Position numbers and translations under genes: made by a program. The notes beneath the pieces were generated by a model, which was not told where the DNA came from, made no database searches, and saw only the letters and a list, made by a program, of their open reading frames with translations. Shown piece after piece: positions 35,694 to 64,000 of a DNA stretch of 64,000 nucleotides. Numbering within the stretch: the stretch's first letter is position 1; the number at the start of each line of letters is the position of its first letter. The DNA comes from Plantactinospora endophytica (lineage in GTDB: Bacteria > Actinomycetota > Actinomycetes > Mycobacteriales > Micromonosporaceae), in assembly GCF_016862915.1 (NCBI RefSeq), contig NZ_BONW01000001.1, forward strand, positions 124,001-188,000, given 5' to 3'.

Positions 35694-35960
35694 CGGTCGC
35701 CTCCGCCCGCTCGGCCGGCAGCACCGTGGCGCAGGCCACCGTGGTCCACATGGGACCTGCTGGCGAAAGACAGGAAACCAGGCACTGGTCGCCACCTCCC
35801 CTAAGGCCGCGCCGACGGTCGTAGTTGGCCGTCCCGGCGGGCCATCCGACGCCCCCGCGTCGCAAATGTCATCGCGCTCGGTCGGACGAGCTTGACCCAT
35901 CCTAGGTAAAGTGCGGTCGTCCGCGCAGCCATGGGTTGCCCCCTCGATGGAGGACTGTCG
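35694..35960. promoter_or_regulatory. Divergent eccC / eccD promoter region
   Basis: 267 bp between the two divergent starts. GGAGGA lies 8 nt before the eccD ATG. TAGGTA (35904) and an upstream TTGACC are seen on the plus strand, but their spacing is not standard, so the promoter is not assigned. No small esx-like ORF is present. Confidence 0.45.
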
Positions 35961-49623: not shown

Positions 49624-50345
49624 GCAGCGGACCGGACCACCAGGCCGTCGGCGGTAACGCCGGCGGCCTGTCCGCGTCGGCCACCGAGCCGGACGGTGAC
49701 GAGGAACTGGACTACCTCGCCGCCCGGCTGGTCAACGGCAGGCTCGGCGGCGGCCCGGTCGAGGACGCCGTCGACCTGGCCAGGATCGAGAAGGCGGTCC
49801 GGGAGATCCTGATCGCCGTCGGCGAGGACCCCGACCGGGACGGCCTGCGGCAGACACCGGCCCGGGTCGCCCGGGCGTACGCCGAACTCTTCGCCGGGCT
49901 GCGGGTCGATCCGGCCCAGGTGCTCAGCACCACCTTCGAGGCCAACCACGAGGAACTCGTACTGGTCCGGGACATCGACGTGATGAGCCTCTGCGAGCAC
50001 CACCTGCTGCCGTTCCGGGGCTCGGCGCACATCGGCTACATCCCGGGCGAGCACGGCCGGATCACCGGGCTCTCCAAGCTGGCCCGGCTGGTCGAGGTCT
50101 ACGCCCGCCGTCCTCAGGTGCAGGAGCGGCTCACCTCGCAGATCGCCGACCTGCTGATGGAGAAACTGGAGCCACGCGGCGTACTGGTGGTGCTGGAGTG
50201 CGAGCACATGTGCATGGCGATGCGCGGCATCCAGAAGGCCGGCGCCAGGACCATCACCTCGGCGGTACGCGGGCTGCTGCAACGGGACGCCAAGTCCCGG
50301 GCCGAGGCGATGAGCCTGATCCTGAACGCCAACCGGATCGTCTGA
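49620..50345 (+). CDS. folE: GTP cyclohydrolase I, probable CTG start
   Basis: 241 residues if initiated at CTG 49620, which overlaps the ftsH stop as CTGA. No ATG, GTG or TTG exists in frame between 49620 and the conserved core, and the only alternatives are inside ftsH. Core motifs: [35 protein letters not shown], zinc ligands CEHHLLPF near 125 and CEHMCM near 195, and the C-terminal [17 protein letters not shown]. It forms 7,8-dihydroneopterin triphosphate for folate. The related species' form GTGAGC would give a normal coupled start; here the G has become C. Confidence 0.9.
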
Positions 50346-50542: not shown

Positions 50543-50983
50543 CTATCCGCGCAGCCCGACGAGGTAGACGCCGCCGAGGCAGAGCACGGCCAGCAGCGCC
50601 AGCAGGGCCACCGTGAGCGCGCCGTAGAGGAGTATCCGGGTCCAGGGCAGCGGGCCGGCCCCGGGCAGCCGGGTGGCGGCGTCGGCCGCGTCGGCGGTCG
50701 AACGGGCCTCCCGCAGCGCCGCCAGCACCGACTGGGGGCCACCGACCATCGCCTGACCGGCCACCGCTACCTCCGGCGCAGACGGCACCAGTTCCGCCTC
50801 GGCGACGCCCAACGCGCGTAGCCGGGACTGCTGCGGCACCAGCCGGGCCCGTACCCCGGCCAACTCCTCCCGGGCGCTGTGCACGCCCCGCTCCTGTTCG
50901 GCGGCGGCGGTCGCGGCGGACCGGCGTACCGCGTCCAGCCGCTGCGCGGCGGCCAGGTAGTCCTGCCAGGCGTCCCCGCTCAC
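50543..50983 (-). CDS. Tail-anchored helical protein, partner of FtsK-like ATPase
   Basis: 146 residues from GTG 50983, overlapping the FtsK-like stop (GTGA). The N-terminal part is a long helix with heptads (WQDYLAAAQRLDAVRRSAATAAAEQERGVHSAREELAGVRARL in pieces), then a linker and one C-terminal membrane helix (about 119-140), so it is probably tail-anchored. The helical part could assemble with the ATPase N-terminus, which is also Ala-rich helix. I do not recognise a family; the strict coupling shows it works with the ATPase. Confidence 0.75.
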   Translation of the reverse strand: MSGDAWQDYLAAAQRLDAVRRSAATAAAEQERGVHSAREELAGVRARLVPQQSRLRALGVAEAELVPSAPEVAVAGQAMVGGPQSVLAALREARSTADAADAATRLPGAGPLPWTRILLYGALTVALLALLAVLCLGGVYLVGLRG

Positions 50984-53916
50984 GGCCGACCCTCCCCGCC
51001 CGGTGCGGCGTACGGCACGACCAGGCTGGCCTGGCCGGTGCGGCGGTCGTACAGCAGCGCCCGGCCGGGCCGGGGGCGCCACCGTACCGGCCGGCCCAGC
51101 AGCCCGGCCACCTCCGTCTCGGGTACGTCGAGCAGCACCAGCCCGTCCACGGTCGCCCCACCTGCGGCAACCGCCCCGGCACCGTCACCCGGCTCCGAAC
51201 TCCCGCCCGCTTCGGAACCGGCACCCCCATCGGGACCTGCGACCTCATCACCGACGACCGCTTCGGGACCTCTGACGTCTTCGGGACCTCTGACATGTTC
51301 GGCACCGGCGACGTCTTCAGGACCGGGGGCCTCCTCGGCACCAGGGGCTTTCTCGGGCTGCGGCGGCGCGGCTTCGGGTTGCGGCGGTGTGGCGAGCAAG
51401 GCGGCGAACGGAGCCGTCGCCCGCCACCAGCCGAGCAGGTGCACACCCCGCGCAGGCCCGTCGCGCAGCAGCGCCCGGATCCGGTCCGCCGACAGGTGTG
51501 CGCCGGCCACCAGCTCGTCAGCCGCGAACAGCACCAGATAGCCGGGTCCGGCCAGCTCCAGCGCCCCGGCCAGCCCGGCGGCGTCCACCCGGCCGACCCG
51601 ATGCCGCCGGGCCAACTCGGCGGTGAGCGCGTCGGCGGCCGGGTCCGCTGCCGGTGCGGCGACCATAAACTCGACGCTGCCGGCGGGATGCCGGGCGGCA
51701 AGCCCTCGGGCCGCACCGGCCAGTACGCCCGCGCCGGCCGGGTCCGCTCCGAGGACCGCGAGGTGTCGGCCCGGCGACCGGTCGAGCGGCAACTCCGCCG
51801 GCCGTGGCGGCACGTCGACCAGCAGTCCGACCGGTGCGCCGATCACCGCCGCCGGCCCGTCGGTCGCGTCCGTACGTGCTCCGCCGGCCGCTGCCGGACC
51901 CGCCGTCGGGGCGGCCACGGCCGGCTCGCGCCGAACGGTCGTGTCCGGCCCGGCACCCGGTGCGGGGACCGGCGGGGCCGGTGGGGTCAGGTAGCCGGTG
52001 AAGACGCCGGGGGCGGGCGTACCGGCGGGACGGTCCGCCCAGAGCCGGTGCCGCAGCCCGCTGAGCGCGCCCGGATCGGCGTGCGGATCGGGGAACCGGA
52101 CCGTCCGCTCGTGCCCCCGGGTCGCGCCTCGGGGCCCGCCCAGCCCACCGGCGGTGTTCACCACCGCCGTACCCAGGGGCAGGCCGGCGGCCGAGTCGTT
52201 CGTCGGCTCCAGCACGTCCGCACCGCCGGGTAGCGCCACCCGGACCGGGAACTGCCCGAGGAACGAGTCCCGCCGGGCGCGCAGCGCGGCCAGCACCGGT
52301 GTCGGCCGCCCGGTCAGGATCAGGTGTACGCCGGCCGAGCGGCCCCGCCGGGCCACCGACTCCAGTCGGGCCAGCGCCTCGGTGCCGATCTCGTCCTCGT
52401 CGGCCAGCAGCAGTGCGAACTCGTCCAGTACGCAGAGGATCCGGTGCGCCGGTCGGGCGCTCGCACCCCGCTGGGCGGGTACCCGGGTCTCCGGCGCGGT
52501 CCGGCGGTCCAGTTCGGCGTCGAGTTCGCGGAGCACCGCGAGGCCGTACTCCCGGTCGGCCTGCACCCCGACGGCCCGGACGTGCGGCAGCCACGGCCCG
52601 CCCGGCGCCGTACCGTCGGACCCGTCCGCCGGCTCCGGTACGAACTCGGTGAACGCCGTCCCGTCCGCGAAGTCGACCAGGTAGAGCGCCAACTCGTCGG
52701 GGTGGTAGCGGGTGCAGAGCCCGTAGAGCACGTTGACCAGGAACGCACTCTTGCCGGCGGCGTCCCGGCCGCCGACCAGCCAGTGCGGGGTGCGTTCGTC
52801 GAAGCCGAGCGGTACCGTCCGCTCACCGTCGTGCCCGACCGGAGTGCTCAGCCCGTCGGCCGAGGACTCGGTCCAGAACCCGTCCGGCGATTCCGGCAGC
52901 AGGTCGTCGACGGTACGCCGGTAGTCGGCGTGGAACCGCGCGGCCAGGTCCCGGCAGACCCGGTCCAGCAGCGGTACCGGCGGGCACTCGTCGAGGAAGA
53001 CCGGCGAGTTGAGTCCGGTGCCCGGCAGGTGCGGCACCGGAGCGCTGAACGGGCCGCCGGGCGGATCGCCGACCAGCGCGTACGGGTTGCGCATCGCGAT
53101 CATCGTGGACCGGGCGAGCGGCGCCTGACTGGTCTCCGCCGTCAACGGTGGCGGTGGCCAGCCGGCGACGATCAGGTGCAGTCCCGCCTCGGGACCCTCC
53201 CGGGCCAGTGCACCGATCCGGGCCAGGTCGGCAGCCTCGGTCAGCTCCGGCAGCGAGCCGACCACCACCAGCAGGGTGCGGTCGTGCCGGTTGTAGCGGG
53301 CGGCGGCCGGGCGCGTGGGGCGTACCCACTGCTCGGCCTCGGCCAGCACGGCCCGCAGCCCGGTGCGGTCGGTGACCGGCGGCGGCATCAGGCCGGCGTC
53401 GGCGAGCGGCGCGAACGGCGCGAAGAGCTGGCCCTCGGCGGTCGCGTCGACGCCGCGCACCAGCAGCGAGCCGGCCGGGGCGGCGGCGAGCAGCCGGAGG
53501 AGTACGGAACGGAGCAGCCCGGCGACCCGGGGATCGCGGCTGTCCGCGTCGACGGTGAGGTGACCGGTGCCGAGCAGTGGCACCACCACCGGGAACCGGG
53601 CGTCGTCCAGCGGCTGGGCGGTGCCGATCCGGACGAAGGCCGGCTGGGCGGGCCCGCCGAGCGGGGCGTCCTCGGACTGGGCGTCCAGCGGTGCGCCGAG
53701 CCAACCGGGGGTGAGCAGGCTCGCCGCGGCACGCAGCCGTTCGGCGAGTTCGTGCTGTTCCCGCTGGTCGGCCGGGATCGGCCGGATCGCGTCCAGCGCG
53801 GTCGCCGCCGCGGCGGCGGTCGCGGCGGCCCGGCGGTGCAGCGCGGCGGCGGTGCCGGCGGCGGCCCGCCAGCGCAGCGTGGCGGCGTGCCCGGTCGGTC
53901 CCTTCCAGGTGTCCAC
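50980..53916 (-). CDS. FtsK/SpoIIIE-like ATPase, candidate coupling protein
   Basis: 978 residues from GTG 53916 (GAGGGAG upstream; an in-frame extension to 54090 lacks one). N-terminal Ala-rich helix, a first degenerate ATPase-like part (about 80-330), then an FtsK domain with P-loop GGRDAAGKSAF near 380 and Walker B ILCVLDEFALLL near 495, and a degenerate third part. The C-terminal region carries a Pro/Glu repeat linker. No membrane helix is evident. The layout recalls EccC or T4SS coupling ATPases without the anchor. Location beside the T4SS-like operon makes a VirD4/TcpA-like role plausible; an EccC-like role is the alternative. Confidence 0.82.
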   Translation of the reverse strand: MDTWKGPTGHAATLRWRAAAGTAAALHRRAAATAAAAATALDAIRPIPADQREQHELAERLRAAASLLTPGWLGAPLDAQSEDAPLGGPAQPAFVRIGTAQPLDDARFPVVVPLLGTGHLTVDADSRDPRVAGLLRSVLLRLLAAAPAGSLLVRGVDATAEGQLFAPFAPLADAGLMPPPVTDRTGLRAVLAEAEQWVRPTRPAAARYNRHDRTLLVVVGSLPELTEAADLARIGALAREGPEAGLHLIVAGWPPPPLTAETSQAPLARSTMIAMRNPYALVGDPPGGPFSAPVPHLPGTGLNSPVFLDECPPVPLLDRVCRDLAARFHADYRRTVDDLLPESPDGFWTESSADGLSTPVGHDGERTVPLGFDERTPHWLVGGRDAAGKSAFLVNVLYGLCTRYHPDELALYLVDFADGTAFTEFVPEPADGSDGTAPGGPWLPHVRAVGVQADREYGLAVLRELDAELDRRTAPETRVPAQRGASARPAHRILCVLDEFALLLADEDEIGTEALARLESVARRGRSAGVHLILTGRPTPVLAALRARRDSFLGQFPVRVALPGGADVLEPTNDSAAGLPLGTAVVNTAGGLGGPRGATRGHERTVRFPDPHADPGALSGLRHRLWADRPAGTPAPGVFTGYLTPPAPPVPAPGAGPDTTVRREPAVAAPTAGPAAAGGARTDATDGPAAVIGAPVGLLVDVPPRPAELPLDRSPGRHLAVLGADPAGAGVLAGAARGLAARHPAGSVEFMVAAPAADPAADALTAELARRHRVGRVDAAGLAGALELAGPGYLVLFAADELVAGAHLSADRIRALLRDGPARGVHLLGWWRATAPFAALLATPPQPEAAPPQPEKAPGAEEAPGPEDVAGAEHVRGPEDVRGPEAVVGDEVAGPDGGAGSEAGGSSEPGDGAGAVAAGGATVDGLVLLDVPETEVAGLLGRPVRWRPRPGRALLYDRRTGQASLVVPYAAPGGEGRP
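51262..51351 (-). repeat. Five 18-bp in-frame units in FtsK-like gene
   Basis: Five units starting at 51262, 51280, 51298, 51316 and 51334, of the form ttcgggacctctgacgtc on the plus strand, encode a Pro/Glu-rich linker (RGPEDV copies). Further degenerate copies extend on both sides. Confidence 0.85.
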
Positions 53917-54179
53917 CGCACCAACTCCCTCGTTCTGGACTGAGACGGTATCCCAGCGCGGGGGCATCTTCGCGGACCTCCGGCGACGGCCGTGGCACAG
54001 ATAGCCGGGGTACCACCGGCACCATGCCGGCCGGGCCGCCCCGGGTGCACGGCCGACCGCTCCGAACCGCACAGCCGACCGATCCGGCATAGCGGATAGT
54101 TATCGGTTGCTCCCTTTTGGTTACCAAGCTGGAATTCACGCCCATTGGGTACGCGGCCCGCAACGGCTAGCCTCAGGGG
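53917..54179. promoter_or_regulatory. Divergent region with TTGGTTACCAA palindrome
   Basis: 263 bp between the FtsK-like gene and the 188-residue gene. It contains an 11-bp palindrome TTGGTTACCAA (54117-54127) and, for the plus-strand gene, TTGGGT (54145-54150) 17 bp before TAGCCT (54168-54173), which ends 6 nt before GTG 54180. Confidence 0.55.
54145..54173 (+). promoter_or_regulatory. Promoter TTGGGT-17-TAGCCT, leaderless start
   Basis: A -35/-10 pair at standard 17-bp spacing puts transcription start at about GTG 54180, so the 188-residue gene is probably leaderless. It is the clearest complete example in the window. Confidence 0.6.
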
Positions 54180-54746
54180 GTGGAATCAGTGCCTCCCCCG
54201 ACCGATTCCCAGGTGTCCCGGGTACCGTCCCAGCGGACCCCGCCCGGACAGGCCGACGCCCCGCCGGTCGCACCGCCACCGGCGCCGCGTCGACGGCGAG
54301 CGGGCCTGGTGCTGGCGGTGGTCGGCGGCGCACTGGCGCTGCTCTGCCTGGCCGGTGCCGCCGTCGCGTACGTCGCCTACGACCGGTTCACCGCACCCGA
54401 CCGGAGCGCCCCGGACGTCGTGGTCGACAACTACCTGCGAGCCTTCCTGGTCGACGAGAACGACGTACTCGCCGAGCAGTTCGAGTGCGCCGACAAGGCC
54501 GGGCTGGCGCCGCTGCGTACGCTCCGGAGCGACCTGACGGCCCGGGAGAAGCAGTTCCAGATCACCTTCGTGGTCAAGTGGGGGCCGCTGGGGGTACGCG
54601 CCCAGGGGGAGAGCGCCGAGGTCACGGTGGAACTGGTCATCTCGTACCTGGTGGACAACCTCTCGCAGACCGAGCACCAGCAGTGGCGATTCGGCACCGA
54701 GCAGGACGACGGCTGGCGGGTCTGCCAGGCCGCCCCGGTGAGCTAA
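54180..54746 (+). CDS. Membrane-anchored protein with NTF2-like C-terminal domain
   Basis: 188 residues from GTG 54180. A Pro-rich cytoplasmic tail (1-42), one membrane helix (about 43-66) and an extracytoplasmic domain of about 120 residues beginning VVDNYLRAFLVDENDVLAEQF and ending QQWRFGTEQDDGWRVCQ, the pattern of DUF4878/NTF2-like folds. It is the only plus-strand gene inside the ATPase/T4SS-like region and converges with the 209-residue gene. A structural role, perhaps like VirB8, is possible but unproven. Confidence 0.75.
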   Translation: MESVPPPTDSQVSRVPSQRTPPGQADAPPVAPPPAPRRRRAGLVLAVVGGALALLCLAGAAVAYVAYDRFTAPDRSAPDVVVDNYLRAFLVDENDVLAEQFECADKAGLAPLRTLRSDLTAREKQFQITFVVKWGPLGVRAQGESAEVTVELVISYLVDNLSQTEHQQWRFGTEQDDGWRVCQAAPVS

Positions 54747-54756
54747 CCCGACCCGG

Positions 54757-54798
54757 GCAGGCGTCACTCGATCCAGCGCAGGCGTCACTCGATCCAGA
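54757..54798. repeat. 21-bp tandem duplication at a gene end
   Basis: gcaggcgtcactcgatccag occurs twice in a row (54757-54777 and 54778-54798). The second copy contains the stop and the last residues of the 209-residue gene. The duplication therefore copied that gene's end into the 38-bp gap. Confidence 0.8.
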
Positions 54799-55414
54799 GC
54801 AGGTGTACCGGCACCTCCAGGGTGGTCGGCGGCCGGCCGCTCCACGCCCAGCGGTACCAGTCGAGTTCGGCGGTGACCCGTACGCAGATGTCACCGTCGG
54901 CGCTGTTGTAGACCTCGGTGACCGCCCGCAGGTCGCGCCGCTCCACCCCGTCGACGACCTGCACCACCCGGCGGCCGGCGACCGCGTCCGTTTCGACCAC
55001 CGGCACCGGGGTCCGGTGCGTCGGCGCGTCCAGCGACACCAGCCGGGAGATCACGTCCGGTCGGGCCGGCCGGGGGATCGGCGGGGTGGTGGCGTCCCAG
55101 ACCGAGATCTCGCCGAGCGTCTCCACCCAGACCCGTTCCGCCGGTACCAGCGGGGCGAAGACCTCGATCTGTTCGGCCTCCGCCCGGTACCACTCGTGCT
55201 CGGCGAGCACCGGCACGTAGCTGCGGCTGCCCTGCACCACCCGCTCGTCCGCCCGCAGGTCGGCCCGCCAGCCGAGCCCGGGCAGCCCGACCAGCACCCG
55301 CCGACCGCGCAGGTCCGTCCGGCCGGCTGCGGCGGCGATGACGATCGGTCGGGGCGGCGCCGGAGCCCAGTCGGGCTGGCCGGCGAACGGATCGGGCAGT
55401 GGATCGTGGCTCAC
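54785..55414 (-). CDS. 209-residue hypothetical protein, last gene of T4SS-like operon
   Basis: From GTG 55414, 16 bp after the peptidase gene. No signal peptide or membrane helix. The sequence is beta-rich (RRVLVGLPGLGWRADLRADERVVQG, AEQIEVFAPLVPAERVWVETLGEI, VTEVYNSADGDICVRVTAELDWYRWAWSG in pieces), so it is probably a cytoplasmic beta-structured protein. No family is recognised. Its operon position suggests an accessory, chaperone-like or effector role for the secretion apparatus. Confidence 0.65.
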   Translation of the reverse strand: MSHDPLPDPFAGQPDWAPAPPRPIVIAAAAGRTDLRGRRVLVGLPGLGWRADLRADERVVQGSRSYVPVLAEHEWYRAEAEQIEVFAPLVPAERVWVETLGEISVWDATTPPIPRPARPDVISRLVSLDAPTHRTPVPVVETDAVAGRRVVQVVDGVERRDLRAVTEVYNSADGDICVRVTAELDWYRWAWSGRPPTTLEVPVHLLWIE

Positions 55415-55430
55415 GCAGTGCTCCGCCGGC

Positions 55431-56564
55431 TCATCCGCCGTCCGTCAGCGGTGCGCCCCGGTCGCGCATGAACGGCACCGGGTCGACCGCGCCGTGCTTG
55501 CTCCGGTCGCCGCGCAGGTGCACCTCGAAGTGCAGGTGCGGCCCCGAGGAGTTGCCGCTCGACCCGACCCGCCCGATCACCTGCCCGGCCTCCACCATGT
55601 CGTTCTTCGAAACCATCGGTCTGCTGACCATATGGCAGTACCGGGTGATCACGTTGCCCGCGTGCAGAATGTCGACGAACCAGCCGCAGCCGCCCTTGCC
55701 CGGGAAGCCGTCCACGTCACAGCTCAACCGGCCCCGCCGGTCCGGGTCGCAGCGGGAGACCAGCACCCGGCCGGCCGCCGCCGATTTGATCTCGGTGGTG
55801 TACTTCGGTGCCCCGATGTCGACGCCGTTGTGCGAGGGTCGGGCGGCGGTGCGGAACCCGGAGCCGACCGAGCCGGGAATCGGCGCGGTCCAGCCGGAGG
55901 CGGCGATCTCCGCCCCGTCGGCGCAACCGAGGTCGAGGTCGGTACCGGCGGCCCGGGCGGCGCCACCGGTCAACGCGTTCACGATCTCGGTCGCCAGCGG
56001 CTCGTGCTTGGCGTACGCGTCCGGAAAGGCGCTGATCTGCACCGCCTGGGCGGCCCGGGTGAGGGAGCGCTTCTGCCAGTTCCGAATGGTCTTCAACTTC
56101 TCGTAGAACTTCCGGGCCGCGTACTCCGGGTTGCGGATCTGCTCCGGGGTGCCCCAGCCGGTGCTGGGCCGCTGCTGGAAGAGCCCGAGCGAGTCGTGGT
56201 CGTTGCGGTCGCCGAGGTGCCCGTGGTTGGTCAGGTTGGACTCCTGCATGGCGGTGGCGACCGCGATCACCCAGGCCCGGGGCGGCAGCTTCATCTCCCG
56301 GCCGACCTTGATGATGATCGCCGCGTTCCGCATCTGGCTCGCCTTGTACGGCCCGACCAGCGGCAACTCACCCTCGATCTTGATCGGGTCGCTGTTGCCG
56401 CAGCCGAAGGTGGTCGCCGCCAGGTTCTCCTCCTCGGAGGCGAACATGGTCACCAGGAACGCCCCGGTGCCCCCGACACAGCAGAGCAGCGCGAGTACGC
56501 CGGTCAGTGTCATCGCCAGCGCGACCCGGCGTACCGGCCGTCGGGCCGTACCGCGGTCGGTCAT
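55431..56564 (-). CDS. VirB1-like cell-wall hydrolase: lysozyme-like plus M23 peptidase
   Basis: 377 residues from ATG 56564. One membrane helix (about 15-38), then a lysozyme/SLT-like region (about 75-165) with AVATAMQESNLTNHGHLGD and SLGLFQQRPSTGWG where the Glu is the candidate catalytic residue. An M23/LytM endopeptidase domain follows (about 225-360) with zinc ligands in SHNGVDIG and GPHLHFEVH. Both walls of the peptidoglycan mesh could be cut. This bifunctional design is common in conjugation systems of Gram-positive bacteria (VirB1-like), where it opens the wall locally. It lies 24 bp after the VirB8-like gene. Confidence 0.9.
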   Translation of the reverse strand: MTDRGTARRPVRRVALAMTLTGVLALLCCVGGTGAFLVTMFASEEENLAATTFGCGNSDPIKIEGELPLVGPYKASQMRNAAIIIKVGREMKLPPRAWVIAVATAMQESNLTNHGHLGDRNDHDSLGLFQQRPSTGWGTPEQIRNPEYAARKFYEKLKTIRNWQKRSLTRAAQAVQISAFPDAYAKHEPLATEIVNALTGGAARAAGTDLDLGCADGAEIAASGWTAPIPGSVGSGFRTAARPSHNGVDIGAPKYTTEIKSAAAGRVLVSRCDPDRRGRLSCDVDGFPGKGGCGWFVDILHAGNVITRYCHMVSRPMVSKNDMVEAGQVIGRVGSSGNSSGPHLHFEVHLRGDRSKHGAVDPVPFMRDRGAPLTDGG

Positions 56565-56588
56565 CCCCCACCCACCTCCCCGCGCCGC

Positions 56589-57134
56589 TCAGCGCCGTTG
56601 CCAGTCCACCGTGTCGACCTGCCAGCGCCCCTCCGGAGCCACCAGCCCGAGCCGGAGTTCACCGGAGTCCACCGGTACGACCACCTCGACCAGGCTGTCG
56701 TTCTGCGGTACGACCCGTGGCTCGCCGGTGATCCGGTCGGCCGGCACGGTGACCGGGTCGACCCCGGTCAACTGCTCGGCCAGTTGCGCGGTGGCGAGCG
56801 GCCGGAGCCTGTCGTGCCACTCCCGCGCGGTCACGTCCTGGTGGTCGAGCCAGGCGGTGGTGAACGACCGGGCCACCGCCTCCGGCTCGGGCGCGCCGGG
56901 GCTGGTCCGGGGCGTCGGCTCCGCGGTCACGGTCAGCCCGTCGTCGCCGGCCTCCGGATCGGTGACGCTGATCGGGCCGGGCGTCCCGCCGATCAGGGTT
57001 GGCCCGCCGTCGCCACCTCCGGCGACCAGCCGGGCCGCGCCGATGATGCCGAGGATCACCACGGCCAGCCCGATCGCGATGCCGAGCCGGGACCGGAGGA
57101 TCCGGGTGAAGAGGAACTCGATCGCCCGCCGCAT
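56589..57134 (-). CDS. VirB8/TcpC-like membrane protein
   Basis: 181 residues from ATG 57134, 4 bp after the VirB6-like stop. A basic N-terminus and one membrane helix (about 19-38) are followed by a linker and a C-terminal NTF2-like domain (about 80-181): AVARSFTTAWLDHQ, WHDRLRPLATAQLAEQLTGV and LRLGLVAPEGRWQVDTVDWQ. Size, topology and operon position match VirB8-like assembly factors of Gram-positive type IV systems (TcpC family). The assignment rests on topology and context rather than sequence identity. Confidence 0.7.
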   Translation of the reverse strand: MRRAIEFLFTRILRSRLGIAIGLAVVILGIIGAARLVAGGGDGGPTLIGGTPGPISVTDPEAGDDGLTVTAEPTPRTSPGAPEPEAVARSFTTAWLDHQDVTAREWHDRLRPLATAQLAEQLTGVDPVTVPADRITGEPRVVPQNDSLVEVVVPVDSGELRLGLVAPEGRWQVDTVDWQRR

Positions 57135-57138
57135 CGCG

Positions 57139-59169
57139 TCACCTCGCCTCGGAGCGGATCCGTGGCGCGGGTGCCGGTGCCGGGTCCGGGGCGGGTGCCG
57201 AGTCGGGCCGGTAGATGACGTAGGACGGGTTCTCGACCGGTACGTCGGGCTCGGTCCACTCGGCCGGCCGGCGCCGGGACGACGGCCGACCACGGGCCGG
57301 CCGGGAACCACCACCGCCGCCGGCAGGGGCGTCCGCCGGGGGCGCGTCGGGCGGGTCGGTGCCCGGGGCGGTACCGGTCTCCGGGCGGCTGGCGGCACCG
57401 CTCTGCGCCGGGTCCTCGTGCCGGGCCTCCGGGCGTACGTTGGTCTGCTGGACCAGTACGTTGCGGTTCTTGACCCGGACGTCGCGTTCCTCGGACTCGC
57501 TCTCCAGCCGGGAGGCGGCCCGGACGTCCCGGAAGAACCGGCGGTGCCACGAGCCGGCCGAGCCGATCACCTCGGTGCTGTCCTTGCCGCCGAGCTGGGT
57601 GATCCGGCGGTACGGCCGCAGCAGCAGCCAGCCGACCACCCCGCAGAGCCAGACCAGCACCACCTGGAGCCAGCCGGGGATGGTGGGGGTGCTCATCACC
57701 AGGTCGACGGCGAAGAGGTAGATCGCCGCGCCGGTGCCGAAGATGGCGATGTTGAACACGGCGGCCACCACCGCGTTGCCCAGCCGGCGCAGACCGGCGC
57801 TGGCCGGGCGGAGCAGCCCGACCGTGCCGAGCACCGGGGCGGCGATCACCGCCCACCGGAAGAGCAGGAAGCCGAGCAGCACCAGCAGGGAGGCGGTCAG
57901 GTCGAACATCGCGAAGAGGATCGCGGCCAGGATGGCGATCAGTCCGGCACCGATCCGGTCCGAGTCACGGGCGCCGCGCAGGTATTCGTACGCCTCCGGG
58001 TCCTCCTGCTTGATCTGCTCGGCGACCTTCATCCACTGTTCCTGCTTCTCCTTCACCGTCGCCGGTCGGGTGGCCGGGTTGGCGGCGATCCGGGCCGCCT
58101 CCTCCCAGGTGAACGCCTTGGCGTCGTAGAGCGCCCGGCCGTACTTGCGGGCCGTCTCGCTGTCCGAGGAGCCGAGCGCGCCGCGCAGCCAGTTGCGGTA
58201 GAGCATCGTCTCGGTGGCGGTGTCGCCGGCCCGCAGCGCCGGTGGCCGGTTGTCCTTGCAGCCGGCCGGGTTGAGCGAGCCGCACCGGTCGGCCGGGATG
58301 CTCTTGTCCCGGGGGCCGACCGCCTCGTGCACCACGTTCAGCGTGGTCACCAGGGTGCCGTCGGCGACGTTCGCGGACCGGACCGGCCAGGCGGCGATCG
58401 CGGTCACCGCGACCATCACCAGTACCGCCCAGCCGGCGGTGGTCATCGCGTTGCTCATGTCGGACTGCCGGGAACGCCAGAGCAGGTAGACGCCGACGAC
58501 GCAGAGGGTGATGATGCCGAAGACGCTGAACACCCGCTCGTAGACGGCCTTGGTGGCCTGCTCGACCAGGGGATCGGCCCAGTCCCACATGGTGCGCGGA
58601 TCCCAGGCCCGCTCGCGCAGCGCGTTCGAGGCGCCGATGATCGCGGCGGCGATCCGGATCTCGCCGTCCGCGATCTTGTTGAACACCTTGCTGCCCGGGT
58701 CGATCACGTCCGAGGCGCAGCCACCGCTGTCGTCGTACGTCTCGTAGCTGTAGCCGGCGTTGCCGTACTCGGTGTACATGCCCTTCACGCCCGGCTGGCT
58801 GCTCGCCTCCGGGCGGGTGGCGAACCAGCCGCCGAGCCCCTGGTCCGGTGCGCTCGGCGTCGGTGCGTTCACACAGTCCCGGATGTTCTGGCCGACGTCG
58901 GCGAGCCGGTCGACACAGTCCCGGAAGTTCGCCTCCCACTCGGCGGTGGTGCAGAGCGCCGCCTTCGCCTGGGTCGGGACCGGCGCGGCCGACGCGGGCG
59001 CCGCGCCGCCCAGCACCGGCCAGACCAGCGTGGCGGTCGCGAGCACCCCGATCGCGAGCAGCAGGGCGGCGACGCGGGCGCCGCTCCTCGCCGTCGAACC
59101 CTCTTCAACCCGAACAGCGCGGCGCTGGCGGCCACGGCGGACGGCAACGGGAGGTCGAAGAAGGTTCAT
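57139..59169 (-). CDS. VirB6/TrbL-like polytopic membrane protein
   Basis: 676 residues from ATG 59169. A signal peptide or N-terminal helix (about 33-62), a Cys-containing extracytoplasmic segment (CTTAEWEANFRDCVDRLADVGQNIRDCV), then helices near 213-232, 244-263, 415-460 (two to three), 480-500 and 510-530, and a Pro-rich cytoplasmic tail of about 130 residues. This polytopic form with an extracytoplasmic loop matches VirB6/TrbL-type channel proteins. It follows the VirB4-like gene by 3 bp. Confidence 0.72.
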   Translation of the reverse strand: MNLLRPPVAVRRGRQRRAVRVEEGSTARSGARVAALLLAIGVLATATLVWPVLGGAAPASAAPVPTQAKAALCTTAEWEANFRDCVDRLADVGQNIRDCVNAPTPSAPDQGLGGWFATRPEASSQPGVKGMYTEYGNAGYSYETYDDSGGCASDVIDPGSKVFNKIADGEIRIAAAIIGASNALRERAWDPRTMWDWADPLVEQATKAVYERVFSVFGIITLCVVGVYLLWRSRQSDMSNAMTTAGWAVLVMVAVTAIAAWPVRSANVADGTLVTTLNVVHEAVGPRDKSIPADRCGSLNPAGCKDNRPPALRAGDTATETMLYRNWLRGALGSSDSETARKYGRALYDAKAFTWEEAARIAANPATRPATVKEKQEQWMKVAEQIKQEDPEAYEYLRGARDSDRIGAGLIAILAAILFAMFDLTASLLVLLGFLLFRWAVIAAPVLGTVGLLRPASAGLRRLGNAVVAAVFNIAIFGTGAAIYLFAVDLVMSTPTIPGWLQVVLVWLCGVVGWLLLRPYRRITQLGGKDSTEVIGSAGSWHRRFFRDVRAASRLESESEERDVRVKNRNVLVQQTNVRPEARHEDPAQSGAASRPETGTAPGTDPPDAPPADAPAGGGGGSRPARGRPSSRRRPAEWTEPDVPVENPSYVIYRPDSAPAPDPAPAPAPRIRSEAR

Positions 59170-59172
59170 CGG

Positions 59173-62100
59173 TCAAGCCTCCAGGTCCGCGATGGGGGAA
59201 GGGAGGTTGGCCACGGCGGCCTTTGCCGTGACCGGGGTGGTGTCCAGGTGGTCGAGCAGGCCGGAGACGTACGACACGTCGACGCGTACCTTCTGCACCC
59301 GGCCGTCGACGTCGCGCATCACGAACTCCCGGAAACCGAGCCGGTCCGCCGACGACGTGTCCACGTTGGACAGCGAGGCCAGGGTCGCCTCGTAGCCGTC
59401 GTTGACCGGTACCCGGAGCAGTCGCAGCGCCTCGGAGGCGATGTCCACGTCCTCGGCGATCCGGCCGACGAAGACGGTGGAGACCAGGTTCTGCACGTCG
59501 AGCCCGAGGATGTCCTTCGGGTTCTGCGAGGAGACCAGTGCGGCGAGGTTCCACTTGCGGGAGTCCCGGGCCAGCCGGACCAGGAAGGACCGGCCGGAGC
59601 GCCAGCCCTCCATGAAGTGCGCCTCGTCGAGACCGACCAGCTTGCGCGAGCCCATCGAGCCGCCGTAGCAGCGGCGTACCGCCAGCCGGTGCGCGGTGTG
59701 CAGCATCGGCAGCGCCAGCGCCTCCTCGGCCGACCAGTACTCCCGCTCGATCTTGAGATCGGGCAGCCGCAGCCCGGCCATGGTGATCACGGTCAGCGTG
59801 GCGTCGGCGCCCAGCAGCCCCTCCGGCGGCCGGCCGAAGAAGAGCAGCGCCAGCGGCATCTCGGCGGTGTCCAGCAGCAGGTTGGCCAGCTCCCGGCCCT
59901 CGTCCTCCAGCCCGGCCAGGCAGGCCACCACATCGTCCAGAGTGGACGTCTCCTCGGCCGGCACCTGTCGGACGGCGTGCCGGAACAGCGTCGCGGTGGA
60001 CGCCTCCCGGGCCACCTGCGGCGGCACCAGCATCATGCAGATGTCCTGCACCAGCATCCGCCGCTCGGCCCGGGCGTTCGAGACCGCGATCTGGAACTCC
60101 CGGTCGCCGCCCGCCCCGGTCGGGAACTCGCTGCGCAGCGGCGTCGGGATCAGCGCGTAGGGTGCCAAAGTGCCGTGCTCGGAACCGGTCAGGTTCAGCA
60201 CGCGTGAATAGGGTCGCAGCTCCGGCATCGCACAGAGCCGGGCCAGCGGGCCGGACGGGTCCAGCAGGGTCACCTGCACCCCGCGCCGGGCGGCCAGATA
60301 GCCGAGCGCGCCGAGCAGGGTCGACTTGCCACCGCCCGGCTCGGCGACGAAGACGGCGAGGCCGGACCGCTCGCGTACCTCCATCGGGAAGTGCAGGTCC
60401 AGGAAGACCGGGCGGCGGCAGGTGCCGGCGGTACGCCCGATCAGGTCGCCGCGCCGGTCGCCGACCGTGGAGGCCGCCTGCGGCAGCGCGGCGGCCAGCA
60501 GCGGTACCGGCATCCGGCGCAGGTAACCGGTGTTCGCGATCGGCTCGCCGGGAATGAACTCCCGGGCCAGCCAGTCCTGGTTCTTCGGATGCTGGAGCGA
60601 GATCCGCAGCTCCCGCGAGTAGAGCTGGATCAGCCGCCGGGCCCGCTCCAGGCACTCCTCCCTGGTCCGCCCGCCGACCGCGATCCGGTGCCAGCCGTGC
60701 GCCCGGGCCGAGTCCACCGGCAGCCCGGTGGTCATCTCGTCACCGATCACCAGCGCCCGCTTGGCCAGCCGCTCCAGCTCGGGCGGGGCGTCGATGCCGT
60801 GCTCGGCGTAGTCGAGCTGCTGGGAACGGATCATCCGCAGCCGGTGCTCCAGATTGCGGAACGAGTCGCCGGAACCGAGGATGTCGACCCGGGTGGAGAT
60901 CTCCATCGGCCACGGCAGCCGCTCGTGGAAGTGCAGCCACGGCTCGTGCCGCTCCGGGATCTCCAGCGGCTCCATCCGACCCACCGCGAGTACGGCGACG
61001 TGCCGCTCCTCCCCGGTCATCCGGTTGACCAGCTTCACCGTCGACCCGTACGGGGTGCGGTAGCGCTCCACCTGCTCGGTCAGGGCCAGCAGGTCACCGC
61101 GCTCCCAGTGGCCGTTGGTGACCGGTGAGAGGGCGCCGGGCGGGGCCATGCAGAGCGCCACGGAGCGGTACATCAGCCACTCCAGCTCCTCGGCGGTGAC
61201 CTGCCGGCCACGCATCCCGAACGCGCCGAGCACCTCGTCGAACTGCTCGACGGTCCGGCCCAGCTTGCGGCGCTCCCCGTCGGCGGTACCCCGGCCGAAG
61301 GCCCGGAGGAACCGTTCGGCCAGCGAGTTGCCGAGCGACCGGCGGGCGAAGGTGACCCCGAGGTAGGTCTGGCCCTCGGCGTGGTTGACCGAGAGCAGGT
61401 GCCGCTGCGCCGCCACCAGGTGGTCCGACCAGCTCGGTGCACCGGCCACGGTGGCCAGCGGCGCCGGGGTGTGCGTGTCGATCGTCCGGGCCCACTCGTC
61501 GGCCGGGAACGGCCGGGTCGTGCGGCGCAGGTGCAGCCGGAACCCGGCGAGGCCGGCGTACTGCTCGGAGATGGCCGAGAGCAGTGCCTCCCGCTCGGCG
61601 TCCGGGCGGAACGCCCAGCGCACCTCCGGCAGCCAGTACCAGGCGGTGACGGTGTTCGGGGTGAAGGTGAGGTGCCCGGCGATCTCGGTGATGGCCAGCT
61701 CGACGGCGGGATCCCGGTCGCCGAAGCGGAGCTTCGGTGCGCGTACCCGCTGGGGTTTGGTCAGCGACTGCGGCCGGGTCGGCTTCGGCGTGCTCCGGCG
61801 CTGCTTCGGGGCGACCGCCGTGCTGTCCCGGTCCGGGCGGCCGCCGGACCGGCGGGTCGGCTGTTCGGCCGGCTCGCGGACCAGCGGCAGCGCGCCGGAG
61901 TGCTCGCCGCCGCGCTGCTGCGGCGCCGGACTCGGCCGCCCGGAGTACGCCTCGGAGGCGGCGTCCGGCCCGGACCGGGGCGCGGGCGGTTCGGCGGGCC
62001 AGCCGGCGGCGGTCGCCGGGCCGGGATCGGGGCGGGCCGGCTCCACCTGCCGGATCGTGGCCGTGGTGTCGAGCCGGGCGGTGGCGGTGTCGTCGTGCGC

Positions 62101-62640
62101 CGGCCGGGCGGGCGGGGCGGCCGGTGGGGCGTACCGGGCGGCGGGCTGGGCAGGTGCGGCCGAGGTCTCCCGCCGGGTGGTGTCGGTCGTCGGAGTCTCG
62201 TCCCGCTTCCAGGCCGGCAGGCCGACGGCGGCGGCGTCCGGGTCCTCGCCCCAGCGCCCGCGTGGCTGCGGCGAGGGGGTGCGGTGCGCCGGTCGGGGTG
62301 CCGGTGCGGCCGGCGGCGGTGGGCCGGCGGGGGCCGACTGGACCGGCCCGGCACCGAAGAGGTCGAGGAAGGGCGAGTCGATGTCCGGATGCTCGACCGG
62401 TGCCGGTGGCCGGGCCGGTGTGCCGGCGGCGGGCCGGGCCGGACGGTTCCGGGCCGGCGGCTGCGGCGCCTGGAAGACCGCGACCCCGCCGTGCCCGGTG
62501 TTGCTGAGCAGTGCGGCGTCGTACTCGGTCTCCTCGGCCGGCTCGGACCCGTGGTAGCCGGAGGACTGCGTACCGTTACCGGGGTTGTCGGCCGGTCGAC
62601 CTGCCGGGTGCGAGGAGCCCGGCGGAGAGGGGCGGGTCAT
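59173..62640 (-). CDS. VirB4/TraC-like secretion ATPase with long disordered N-terminus
   Basis: 1155 residues from ATG 62640. About 300 N-terminal residues are Pro/Ala/Arg-rich and probably disordered, unlike normal VirB4 (about 800 residues). The core has a TraC/VirB4 N-domain, then VFVAEPGGGKSTLLGALGYLAARRG with P-loop near 765 (the first Gly is Ala), Walker B KLVGLDEAHF near 1000, and ALVSSQNPKDILG after it, as in HerA/VirB4 ATPases. It powers pilus or channel assembly in type IV systems. The gene is linked upstream to PrgI-like by two overlapping micro-ORFs. Confidence 0.85.
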   Translation of the reverse strand: MTRPSPPGSSHPAGRPADNPGNGTQSSGYHGSEPAEETEYDAALLSNTGHGGVAVFQAPQPPARNRPARPAAGTPARPPAPVEHPDIDSPFLDLFGAGPVQSAPAGPPPPAAPAPRPAHRTPSPQPRGRWGEDPDAAAVGLPAWKRDETPTTDTTRRETSAAPAQPAARYAPPAAPPARPAHDDTATARLDTTATIRQVEPARPDPGPATAAGWPAEPPAPRSGPDAASEAYSGRPSPAPQQRGGEHSGALPLVREPAEQPTRRSGGRPDRDSTAVAPKQRRSTPKPTRPQSLTKPQRVRAPKLRFGDRDPAVELAITEIAGHLTFTPNTVTAWYWLPEVRWAFRPDAEREALLSAISEQYAGLAGFRLHLRRTTRPFPADEWARTIDTHTPAPLATVAGAPSWSDHLVAAQRHLLSVNHAEGQTYLGVTFARRSLGNSLAERFLRAFGRGTADGERRKLGRTVEQFDEVLGAFGMRGRQVTAEELEWLMYRSVALCMAPPGALSPVTNGHWERGDLLALTEQVERYRTPYGSTVKLVNRMTGEERHVAVLAVGRMEPLEIPERHEPWLHFHERLPWPMEISTRVDILGSGDSFRNLEHRLRMIRSQQLDYAEHGIDAPPELERLAKRALVIGDEMTTGLPVDSARAHGWHRIAVGGRTREECLERARRLIQLYSRELRISLQHPKNQDWLAREFIPGEPIANTGYLRRMPVPLLAAALPQAASTVGDRRGDLIGRTAGTCRRPVFLDLHFPMEVRERSGLAVFVAEPGGGKSTLLGALGYLAARRGVQVTLLDPSGPLARLCAMPELRPYSRVLNLTGSEHGTLAPYALIPTPLRSEFPTGAGGDREFQIAVSNARAERRMLVQDICMMLVPPQVAREASTATLFRHAVRQVPAEETSTLDDVVACLAGLEDEGRELANLLLDTAEMPLALLFFGRPPEGLLGADATLTVITMAGLRLPDLKIEREYWSAEEALALPMLHTAHRLAVRRCYGGSMGSRKLVGLDEAHFMEGWRSGRSFLVRLARDSRKWNLAALVSSQNPKDILGLDVQNLVSTVFVGRIAEDVDIASEALRLLRVPVNDGYEATLASLSNVDTSSADRLGFREFVMRDVDGRVQKVRVDVSYVSGLLDHLDTTPVTAKAAVANLPSPIADLEA

Positions 62641-62708
62641 ACCGCCGCCTCGCCCAGCCCGGCAGGCTCCACCGCACGGCGGTGGAGAGATCTTGTTCGC
62701 TCGGTCAC
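62637..62708 (-). CDS. 23-residue micro-ORF linking PrgI- and VirB4-like genes
   Basis: GTG 62708 overlaps the stop of a 9-residue ORF (GTGA) and its own TGA overlaps the VirB4-like ATG (ATGA). It reads MTERTRSLHRRAVEPAGLGE and three more residues. It may be a real micro-protein or a coupling relay for ribosomes. Only its strict overlaps and GC3-rich codons support it. Confidence 0.35.
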   Translation of the reverse strand: MTERTRSLHRRAVEPAGLGEAAV

Positions 62709-62734
62709 GCCGTCACCTCGCTGCGGTCGGTCAT
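62705..62734 (-). CDS. 9-residue micro-ORF after PrgI-like gene
   Basis: ATG 62734 overlaps the PrgI-like stop (ATGA) and reads MTDRSEVTA to a TGA shared with the next GTG. Alone it would be dismissed; as a link in a chain of 4-nt overlaps it may carry ribosomes to the VirB4-like start. Confidence 0.25.
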   Translation of the reverse strand: MTDRSEVTA

Positions 62735-63093
62735 GTCAACTGCTCCCGGATCCGGATACGGGTCGCGACCAGTCGTGGGTCGCGCTGCTCTGTCGCCGGT
62801 TCGCGGGTGCGCCGCCAGTCGGTCAGTGCCGTCCGGATCACCATCCGGGCGGGCCGGTCGGGGTCGACGTACCGGAAGACGAACGAGGTCGTCACGATGG
62901 CGAGCGCGATCTCCCAGGCGGGGATCAGCTCGACCCTGAGCGTGAACGTCCAATGAATGAACATGAAGAGCGGCACCAGCAACATGAACAGCCCGTACTG
63001 CGTGTAAGGCAGGTGGATGGGCAGTGTGTAGCCGGGCGGCCCCAGGTAGACCAGGCGGGCCCGATAGATGTCGTCGTCGGTGCGCAGCCGCAT
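62731..63093 (-). CDS. PrgI-family (VirB3-like) membrane protein
   Basis: 120 residues from ATG 63093, 15 bp after the pilin-like gene. A short N-terminus (LRTDDDIYRARLVYLGPPGYTL) leads to two close membrane helices (about 32-51 and 58-76), then a basic, charged tail. Two helices with a charged C-tail directly before a VirB4 gene is the PrgI/VirB3 arrangement of Gram-positive T4SS loci. VirB3-like proteins anchor VirB4 to the inner membrane. Confidence 0.78.
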   Translation of the reverse strand: MRLRTDDDIYRARLVYLGPPGYTLPIHLPYTQYGLFMLLVPLFMFIHWTFTLRVELIPAWEIALAIVTTSFVFRYVDPDRPARMVIRTALTDWRRTREPATEQRDPRLVATRIRIREQLT

Positions 63094-63108
63094 CTCGTGC
63101 TCCGCGGT

Positions 63109-63420
63109 CTATTCGAAGATCAGGTTGATCAGGTTCTCGCCGACGAAGAACAGCGTCGCCGCCCCGGCGATGAAGGCCAGGCCGAGCAGCGCGATCGCCG
63201 AGCTGGTCAGCACCTTGGAGACCTCGCCCTTGCTGGCTCGACCGATGAAGATCACTCCGAGTACGGCGAGCAGGATGGGCGCGATGTTGGTGGCGAAGAA
63301 GCCGACAATCCCATCGGTGTCGATATTGCCCTCGGGCTCGGCCGCCGTCACGGACGCGAGGGTGTGGAGCGCGTGCGTGGCAGCCGGCCATGCCGTCTCC
63401 ACCAGCTCCATGGCGAACAT
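63109..63420 (-). CDS. VirB2/TrbC-like two-helix pilin-type membrane protein
   Basis: 103 residues from ATG 63420, with GGGAGG six bases upstream; an ATG three codons in is weaker. A hydrophilic N-terminal segment with Thr/Glu is followed by two hydrophobic helices (about 38-58 and 72-96) joined by a basic loop (GRASKGEVSK), ending in LINLIFE. This size and topology match VirB2/TrbC-like subunits. It is the first gene of the operon, 15 bp before the PrgI-like gene. Whether it forms a pilus is unknown. Confidence 0.72.
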   Translation of the reverse strand: MFAMELVETAWPAATHALHTLASVTAAEPEGNIDTDGIVGFFATNIAPILLAVLGVIFIGRASKGEVSKVLTSSAIALLGLAFIAGAATLFFVGENLINLIFE

Positions 63421-63814
63421 CGGAATCCTCCCCGGGTGCGGCCCCGTCTCGGCACCGCACTGCTGTCAAGCCCGGTCAACCGGGTCGGTCGTGGGGTGTT
63501 GATCGACCCTGCGTCTCGCAATCACCGCGAAGGGTGATGGTTTGTGGGCATCTTTGTCCTGATTCGGCCCATCTCTTAAGTTCTGGCATCTGGCTGATGC
63601 GAGCGTACGGCGCGTGCCTGTTTGGAACAAGCGGCGCCGAGTGCCACCGATCCGCCCCGGGCGGGCAGTTTCACGTGCCCCGCCGTACCCGCCGGATTGC
63701 CCGGCTCACCGCCTGTGATCAGCGTCGGGGCACGACCCCGGAGCCGCCCCTCGGGCACCGGTGGCCCGGCCGGCCGGTCAGGAAGGCACCGGGGCTGGTG
63801 GGTAACGTCTACCC
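63421..63814. promoter_or_regulatory. Divergent region between T4SS-like operon and folP
   Basis: 394 bp. On the minus strand TTGACA (63469-63464) has no matching -10. A perfect ATCACC-N6-GGTGAT (63521-63538) and a GCATC-N5-GATGC repeat lie further up. On the plus strand TAACGT (63803-63808) ends 6 nt before the folP GTG. No gene is seen; a short minus-strand ORF at 63576-63758 has no support. Confidence 0.5.
63803..63808 (+). promoter_or_regulatory. TAACGT -10-like hexamer before leaderless folP
   Basis: TAACGT ends 6 nt before GTG 63815. This is a new promoter for a gene that in mycobacteria is read through from folE. Confidence 0.5.
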
Positions 63815-64000
63815 GTGACCGAGTCAGTCCCGGGCCCCGCCACGACCGGCGGCGGACCCCCGACCGTCGGCGACCTGCTCCGCCCGCCCCGGCCGGTGGT
63901 GATGGGCGTCCTCAACGTCACGCCCGACTCCTTCTCCGACGGCGGCCGGTACGCCGACCTCGACGCCGCCGTCCGGCACGGTGTGCAGATGCACTCCGAC
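63815..64000 (+). CDS. folP: Dihydropteroate synthase, 5' part
   Basis: 62 residues visible from GTG 63815, running off the window. After a Pro/Gly-rich start, PVVMGVLNVTPDSFSDGGRY is the conserved first strand and pyrophosphate-loop signature of dihydropteroate synthase. It joins pterin and p-aminobenzoate in folate synthesis. folE at 49620-50345 is its usual neighbour; about 13.5 kb now lies between. Confidence 0.93.
   Translation, partial: MTESVPGPATTGGGPPTVGDLLRPPRPVVMGVLNVTPDSFSDGGRYADLDAAVRHGVQMHSD

Follow-up and report, generated by a model that had tools for sequence, protein, structure and literature searches.

Chromosomal type IV secretion systems (T4SSs) without a relaxase are an already known kind of machine, according to the accessible portions of two papers (PMC12102498, PMC12857230). 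In Patescibacteria, most of the chromosomal T4SS clusters, which are widespread and for which co-option has been proposed, lack a relaxase; these clusters differ from the locus described below in belonging to another lineage, with an epibiotic lifestyle, and in that VirD4 homologues are present, a minority of them near virB4 (PMC12102498). The Ptl, Brucella VirB, ComB, and Trw systems are VirB machines without the type IV coupling protein (T4CP) VirD4 (PMC12857230). The locus considered here lies in a window (the whole stretch of DNA that was analyzed, 64 kb) of the 9.7-Mb genome of Plantactinospora endophytica, where a minus-strand run of seven open reading frames (ORFs) at positions 54785-63420 is flanked by folE and folP. 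We refer to the first six ORFs by the VirB positions they occupy, in gene order B2, B3, B4, B6, B8, and B1, and to the seventh as G7. Ptl, Brucella VirB, ComB, and Trw are Gram-negative machines with outer-membrane core parts, unlike this locus. Our preferred interpretation, to which we assign a probability of about 60%, is that B2 to B1 are a domesticated, vertically inherited core T4SS with a non-conjugative job in the cell envelope or in differentiation.

The sole phenotyped chromosomal case that we found in actinobacteria, which we use as an analogue, is Streptomyces cmdABCDEF (SCO4126-4131), a chromosomal cluster of a VirB4-like ATPase and membrane proteins in several Streptomyces (PMC2782261). 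In the accessible part of that paper, deletion of cmdA-F in Streptomyces coelicolor delayed aerial growth, impaired sporulation, disturbed septation and chromosome segregation, and raised actinorhodin, but had no significant effect on how an SLP2-derived plasmid was transferred; a transposon study, also available in part, again tied cmdBCDEF to actinorhodin (PMC6585502). An operon at two Streptomycetaceae loci (L070 in G215 and L071 in G356) was considered as the cmd locus and rejected, as among 61 Streptomycetaceae genomes the query itself was the only one with a full-length VirB4 match; it is an accessory VirB4-type operon of this family. A paper on Micromonospora lupini mentions one VirB4 gene amid proteins of unknown function that are common to two other Micromonospora genomes (PMC4182475), and one on Frankia mentions a conserved VirB4 in three Frankia (PMC2266912); the accessible portions of both describe no T4SS gene set, family-wide conservation, or origin. 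M. lupini Lupac 08 carries the locus described here (L098). Our searches of an open-access library turned up no published account of a core operon across this family, nor of T4SSs being recruited separately.

When the C-terminal ∼815 amino acids of B4 were used as a query, a VirB4 match was present in 114 of 121 Micromonosporaceae genomes (41 of 44 genera), or 113 of 121 after removal of a spurious short match in G094; the matches are partial or split in some genomes (G059, G099, and G118). The nearest named relatives are in two Plantactinospora (97-98%), followed by Micromonospora, Phytohabitans, Asanoa, Salinispora, Verrucosispora, and Actinoplanes. All 22 family loci that were inspected have the six T4SS genes in the same order, and none of the 80 named loci, which are the top 80 of 281, has an alternative order among the genes found, with the complete FolP-to-FolE block in 51 of them. 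Of the 29 incomplete named loci, 14 are without FolP, B2, and B3, and in 12 of these the contig stops at the start of B4, the other two being L097 and L131 (see below); four are without an EccC-like match, and the remaining ones are without only FolE, at their right-hand end. Seven genomes were re-examined because their loci showed no FolE, and the module proved to be distant from folE in four (G014, G117, G004, and G013) and 11-14 kb from it in three (G040, G007, and G050). Conservation thus reaches far past the one strain, and the presence in 113 of 121 genomes with one gene order in the named loci supports the original prediction of a chromosomal, domesticated machine.

The locus also appears to have been inherited together with its neighbors. 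B4 distances correlate with those of FolP (r 0.901) and FolE (r 0.812), and none of 999 permutations was as high in either comparison. The ratio of nonsynonymous to synonymous substitution rates (dN/dS; NG86, five pairs, with B2 and B3 unavailable in one) was <0.5 for the six genes wherever it was computed, except for B8 in the closest pair (0.66). The FolE and FolP controls gave 0.11-0.36 and 0.16-0.82, respectively, the value of 0.82 coming from a 62-codon fragment. These values show purifying selection on the six genes.

The identity of the components was assessed by family profiles and by profile-profile comparison (hhalign) of family alignments with the proteins of plasmids and of two other actinobacterial families, f3 and f17, that are described below; five unrelated pairs scored ≤0.4%. 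The prediction that B4 is a VirB4-like ATPase is borne out by its match to Pfam AAA_10 (2.2e-19). B4 also matches the TcpF-type NF052333 (5e-16, far under cut-off) and scores 100% against the f17 B4, which itself matches TcpF (1.6e-73) and VirB4_CagE (1e-15), both under cut-off. The Walker A pattern is present in 31 of 31 rows of the B4 alignment, in which one genome appears twice, and DEAH in 30 of 31. Likewise, the predicted VirB1-like pairing of lysozyme and M23 domains in B1 agrees with a match to Peptidase_M23 (3.7e-22) and a weak lysozyme-like match to SLT_3 (E 0.014). The M23 motif HxH is found in 27 of 31 rows of the B1 alignment and HxGxD in 30 of 31, and B1 scores 100% against the linear-plasmid B1 across ∼150 columns of the lysozyme part and 0.5% against the f17 B1. 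B1 also resembles the C-terminal part of the phage tape-measure family phrog_10030 (3.3e-64), so the lysozyme plus M23 arrangement is common to B1 and phage tails.

No Pfam or NCBIfam family is matched over cut-off by B2, B3, B6, B8, or G7, and the homologues were more informative. B2 scores 98.1% against the linear-plasmid B2, 91.5% against the f17 B2, and merely 27.6% against the f3 B2. For B3, the PrgI part of the predicted PrgI/VirB3 assignment found no match in Pfam or NCBIfam; B3 scores 99.1% against the linear-plasmid B3, 98.5% against the f3 B3, and 1.6-4.3% against TcpE-type proteins. The predicted VirB6 is supported through its homologues: B6 scores 100% (6.6e-71) against the plasmid B6 and 99.5% against the f17 B6, which matches NF046089 (7e-22, under cut-off) and TrbL PF04610 (1.2e-5, slightly under cut-off). 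B8 appears to be the weaker of these two assignments, as it scores 99.4%, 99.6%, and 93.3% against the plasmid, f3, and f17 B8 proteins, respectively, and 3.5-4.9% against full TcpC, and its tie to VirB8 runs through a weak match of the f17 B8 to TpcC PF12642 (E 0.012). Hydropathy places two transmembrane (TM) segments in B2, several in B6, and one each in B8 and B1. Sequence searches of the PDB returned two weak matches for B8 and one for B6, all to unrelated proteins, and none for B4. Altogether, five of the six genes are linked to plasmid counterparts at 98-100% in these alignments. Of the components of a Gram-positive, MPF_FATA-like T4SS, a VirB4 ATPase, a VirB6 homologue, and a VirB1 wall hydrolase are present, and the predicted minimal set survives as the six genes B2-B3-B4-B6-B8-B1, with the seventh gene belonging instead with folE.

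The linear-plasmid T4SS modules of actinobacteria (for example, those of pSM17C, pSSFR2, pRVR2, and pRaL13d) are the closest relatives of this locus. Their VirB4 proteins are 31-37% identical to B4, the compared genes are homologous, and the order B2-B3-B4-B6-B8-B1 is the same in nine plasmids inspected, with just a 97-aa ORF at the B8 place of pRVR2 (L179). They differ in having an FtsK- or VirD4-type coupling protein gene nearby in eight of nine cases (that of L174 recognized by 75% identity to its L075 counterpart; none is near L175) and in that their B1 is annotated as NlpC/P60 or C40, not M23, in seven of nine. Eight of the nine are typed as relaxase-less, and L182 is typed MOBP; of the 279 plasmid records in which a relative occurs, however, 183 are typed mobilizable or conjugative, leaving 96 that are non-mobilizable.

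The original prediction had noted no relaxase and from this proposed domestication. The first part holds for the families searched, as neither PF03432 nor PF08751 matched in the genome. The second needs another argument, because eight of nine close plasmid relatives are also typed without a relaxase, so that its absence alone does not show domestication; it is the family-wide conservation together with the missing coupling protein that argues for it. Because the locus contains no relaxase of the searched families and no recognizable VirD4/TcpA/FtsK coupling protein, the module, judged from its gene content, could probably not carry out conjugation unaided.

Two other families carry T4SSs that are universal in the genomes sampled. 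Family f3 belongs to the same GTDB order as Plantactinospora, and we take it to be Pseudonocardiaceae. VirB4 is present in 80 of 80 f3 genomes (72 at 83-100% and five at 64-66%, with three split by an in-frame insert). Seven f3 loci were inspected, and they have the order B3-B4-B6-B8-B1, followed in most by two small genes. Five of them (L059, L060, L194, L199, and L200) carry an RNase H/phosphatase gene on the B2 side, and three (L059, L060, and L200) carry panB at the opposite side; three of the RNase H genes and two of the panB genes were confirmed by Pfam. The divergent locus L197 has a different context. Three plasmid coupling proteins used as queries against five of the f3 loci matched nothing there at E 1e-3. 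The insert that splits the f3 VirB4 (L194:7456-11745 in G623, and also G626 and G597) is ∼390 aa long, and in L194 it looks like an intein because it begins directly after the Walker A lysine and holds a LAGLIDADG_3 domain. Family f17, in or near Streptosporangiaceae (95.7% match to Nonomuraea), has a VirB4 of 76-100% in 81 of 81 genomes, and three Nocardiopsis plasmids carry an f17-type VirB4 at 72-75%. In a class-wide sample, VirB4 matched in 71 of 393 genomes, many weakly.

A VirB4 tree (36 rows, LG+G4), with which an earlier 51-row quick tree agrees, places the Micromonosporaceae core proteins in one clade. The f3 proteins join plasmids (100/99) and group with Pseudonocardia and Rhodococcus plasmids (93/93), and f17 is far from the Micromonosporaceae core. 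Approximately unbiased (AU) tests, in which the groups were defined after the first tree and which used a simple model with long branches present, rejected a single clade of core, f3, and second copies (see below; p 0.0047) and one that also contained f17 (p 5e-6). One shared chromosomal origin of the copies in the three families is thereby rejected. As the universal copies of the two other families lie elsewhere in the tree, plasmid-type T4SSs seem, from these sequences, to have been recruited to the core genome repeatedly and separately.

The sister of the core clade is a second copy in two family genomes, G106 (L057, L082, and L083) and G095 (L058, L084, and L085), with a VirB4 of 64-65% and an FtsK-type ATPase downstream. 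Both have phage tail genes close by (a tape measure in each, and in G106 also a tail tube), which hints that they may belong to a composite mobile element. A phage origin of these copies was rejected: a pattern match flagged five stretches in viral_contigs, of which none was confirmed, and three phage records matched partially, at 22-23%.

The coordinates of the operon and its neighbors are collected in Table 1. The seven minus-strand genes are real, as the AAA_10 match of B4, the M23 match of B1, and the recurring gene order are more than chance would give. Successive ORFs from B2 to G7 are separated by 15, 90, 3, 4, 24, and 16 bp; the 90-bp gap between B3 and B4, measured from the first in-frame start, exceeds the predicted range of 3-24 bp.

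Table 1. Features of the T4SS locus and its surroundings in the P. endophytica window
Feature	Coordinates	Strand	Details
B2, VirB2/TrbC-position small protein	63109..63420	-	103 aa
B3, VirB3/PrgI-position membrane protein	62731..63093	-	120 aa
B4, VirB4-family ATPase with long N-terminal extension	59173..62640	-	1155 aa
B6, VirB6/TrbL-like polytopic membrane protein	57139..59169	-	676 aa
B8, VirB8-position bitopic protein	56589..57134	-	181 aa
B1, VirB1-like cell-wall hydrolase (lysozyme-like domain + M23 peptidase)	55431..56564	-	377 aa
G7, conserved protein without assigned family; co-oriented folE neighbor, not a T4SS part	54785..55414	-	209 aa
Rv0361-like single-TM protein, opposite-strand neighbor	54180..54746	+	NF051431 2.5e-6, under cut-off; TM from hydropathy
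EccC-like FtsK/HerA ATPase adjoining folE, weak candidate coupling ATPase	50980..54090	-	PF01580 2.7e-15
FolE	49635-50345	+	Pfam GTP_cyclohydroI 1.2e-76
FolP orthologue	ORF at 63815	+	L035 orthologue is FolP by Pfam Pterin_bind 1.8e-81

Neither G7 nor the EccC-like ATPase tracks the T4SS, because both are found at folE without an adjacent T4SS. A G7 homologue adjoins folE in G004 (42%) and G117 (41%), in which the T4SS is elsewhere, and in G085 (37.5%), a genome without a T4SS match; G7 was not called next to folE in G014, G013, or G023. G7 was accordingly rejected as a component, and the T4SS genes number six, not seven, because G7 goes with folE. The EccC-like ATPase is the usual neighbor, present in 76 of 80 named loci. 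It also adjoins folE in G040 and in G023, which has no T4SS, and was unmatched next to folE in the other seven loci checked, six of them from T4SS-bearing genomes. It is closer to the EccC of type VII secretion systems (T7SSs) than to plasmid coupling proteins, and hydropathy shows no TM segment in the window protein and two weak peaks in that of L098. We therefore rejected it as a plasmid-type coupling protein, given this kinship and its persistence in G023, and keep it as a weak candidate.

A 42% paralogue of this ATPase with weak similarity to TraG-D_C lies apart from the T4SS elsewhere in the genome (L078:9001-11544, on C22). Within the window, positions 31713-37388, 17-23 kb off the operon, encode a type VII EccD (PF19053 1.5e-80) and an EccC-type triple FtsK ATPase. 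The window contains no tRNA, and an Rfam scan gave just two matches, each far under its gathering score. Upstream of B2 (63421-63815), two short blocks, one around GCTTGT and the other around CGTACGCT, are near-identical in ten sampled sequences and promoter-like. A scan for developmental-promoter motifs, using consensus sequences, found GACAC or GTGTC upstream of B2 in 19 of 67 sequences and a σWhiG-like or BldD-like motif in none of the 67.

Several observations weigh against a domesticated core T4SS as the explanation. The VirB8 and VirB3 assignments derive from gene position and from the comparison of profiles with profiles. The absence of a relaxase refers to two families of mobilization (MOB) proteins, PF03432 and PF08751, which alone were searched, with 0 matches in the genome; as a control, each profile found a match in 1 of 14 control genomes. 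No VirD4/TcpA coupling protein was found in the operon, and none was convincing genome-wide by PF12696, with FtsK-type proteins elsewhere not searched; the single PF12696 match (28.6 bits) is in the EccC-like paralogue on another contig, and this profile found matches in 4 of 14 control genomes. The SLP2 relatives of Cmd have no detectable homology to the core B4, B6, B3, or B2. SLP2 proteins, which stand in for Cmd by way of the comparison in the accessible text of PMC2782261, score 2.0% (B4) and 0.5% (B6) against the core, and because they do not align with it, cmdA-F is an analogy and not a shown homologue. The T4SS is not essential family-wide, because 8 of 121 genomes are without a close VirB4 (G005, G023, G038, G054, G063, G074, G085, and G094, three of them of one genus, g24); some of these assemblies are incomplete, and G023 is one contig that is 99% complete. 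In Micromonospora echinofusca (L097) and Micromonospora sp. HK10 (L131), FolP, B2, and B3 are replaced by >8 kb of other DNA, and the break falls within the N-terminal part of B4, at the point where 12 other contigs end; our guess is a misassembly, although assembly error and loss were not told apart. Four named loci have no EccC-like match, and in three of these (L104, L134, and L142) ∼4 kb of sequence is left. Finally, the ORFs of B6 and B1 in the Phytohabitans suffuscus locus (L040/L112) are shorter than those of relatives; frameshifts and assembly errors were not told apart.

The same apparatus might still move DNA, used in trans by resident plasmids or for chromosomal DNA between hyphae with an FtsK/EccC-like coupling ATPase, and we regard this as unlikely. 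The close plasmid relatives, eight of nine of which are themselves typed relaxase-less, have an FtsK/T4CP gene nearby in eight of nine cases, and the EccC-like ATPase adjoins 76 of 80 named loci. However, that protein is not specifically akin to plasmid coupling proteins, persists in the T4SS-less G023, and is unmatched at folE in seven other loci, six from genomes with a T4SS, and vertical core inheritance would be unusual for a transfer apparatus.

To the same low degree, we would credit a pilus or adhesin at the cell surface that translocates nothing, like Bartonella Trw. B2 is a two-TM, pilin-like protein, and the accessible part of PMC12857230 describes Trw as a precedent without a T4CP. 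Against this, the operon has a single B2 that is conserved over 16 aligned rows, whereas in Trw this gene is amplified and variable, and the operon genes include no VirB5 candidate.

Slightly less probable still is a DNA-uptake machine like Helicobacter ComB, which itself has no VirD4. The coupling protein is likewise missing here and VirB4 is the sole ATPase in the module, but ComB has VirB7, VirB9, and VirB10 homologues according to the available portion of PMC12857230, and none of these was recognized in the operon. In Micromonosporaceae, moreover, we know of no natural competence, which counts against uptake.

An ordinary or decaying integrative conjugative element is very improbable. In its favor, the module derives from conjugation genes, the second copies of G106 and G095 have phage tail genes as neighbors, and in four genomes the module is away from folE. 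It is contradicted by the shared locus across genera, dN/dS mostly <0.5, a Walker A pattern in all 31 rows of the B4 alignment, the lack of a PF03432/PF08751 relaxase match in the genome, presence in 113 of 121 genomes, and one gene order in 80 named loci.

In the domesticated core T4SS that we favor, a plasmid-type module with VirB2, VirB3, VirB4, VirB6, VirB8, and VirB1 equivalents would have become fixed in an ancestor of Micromonosporaceae and been inherited vertically as a core locus ever since. B1 would open the peptidoglycan, B6, B8, and B3 would form with B2 an envelope channel or short pseudopilus, and the VirB4 ATPase would drive assembly and transport. Because there is no coupling protein, substrates would probably be taken after Sec export or delivered by another ATPase. 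This channel activity and substrate route, like a developmental role, are what we infer, and the job would most likely belong to the physiology of the mycelial envelope or to differentiation. Those families in which a system is universal are presumably mycelial, and the listed genomes of f2, which we take to be Mycobacteriaceae, had at most one weak VirB4 match (20 without and one with); this pattern fits a mycelial role, although no correlation was computed. We offer more tentatively, as a possibility that we doubt, that mycelial actinobacteria have independently and repeatedly, in at least three families, made linear-plasmid conjugation modules into relaxase-free, universal or near-universal core organelles of the hypha that may act as envelope or cross-wall channels.

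Conjugation machines are usually accessory, and here one behaves like core genes in an antibiotic-producing family, with two further families keeping T4SSs of separate origin. A near-universal, inherited single locus that is apparently without DNA-moving parts probably has some everyday job. By analogy, the cmd phenotypes suggest that chromosomal VirB4 clusters can affect development and antibiotic output, and the wider question is that of T4SSs that may serve cell biology instead of gene transfer in monoderm bacteria.

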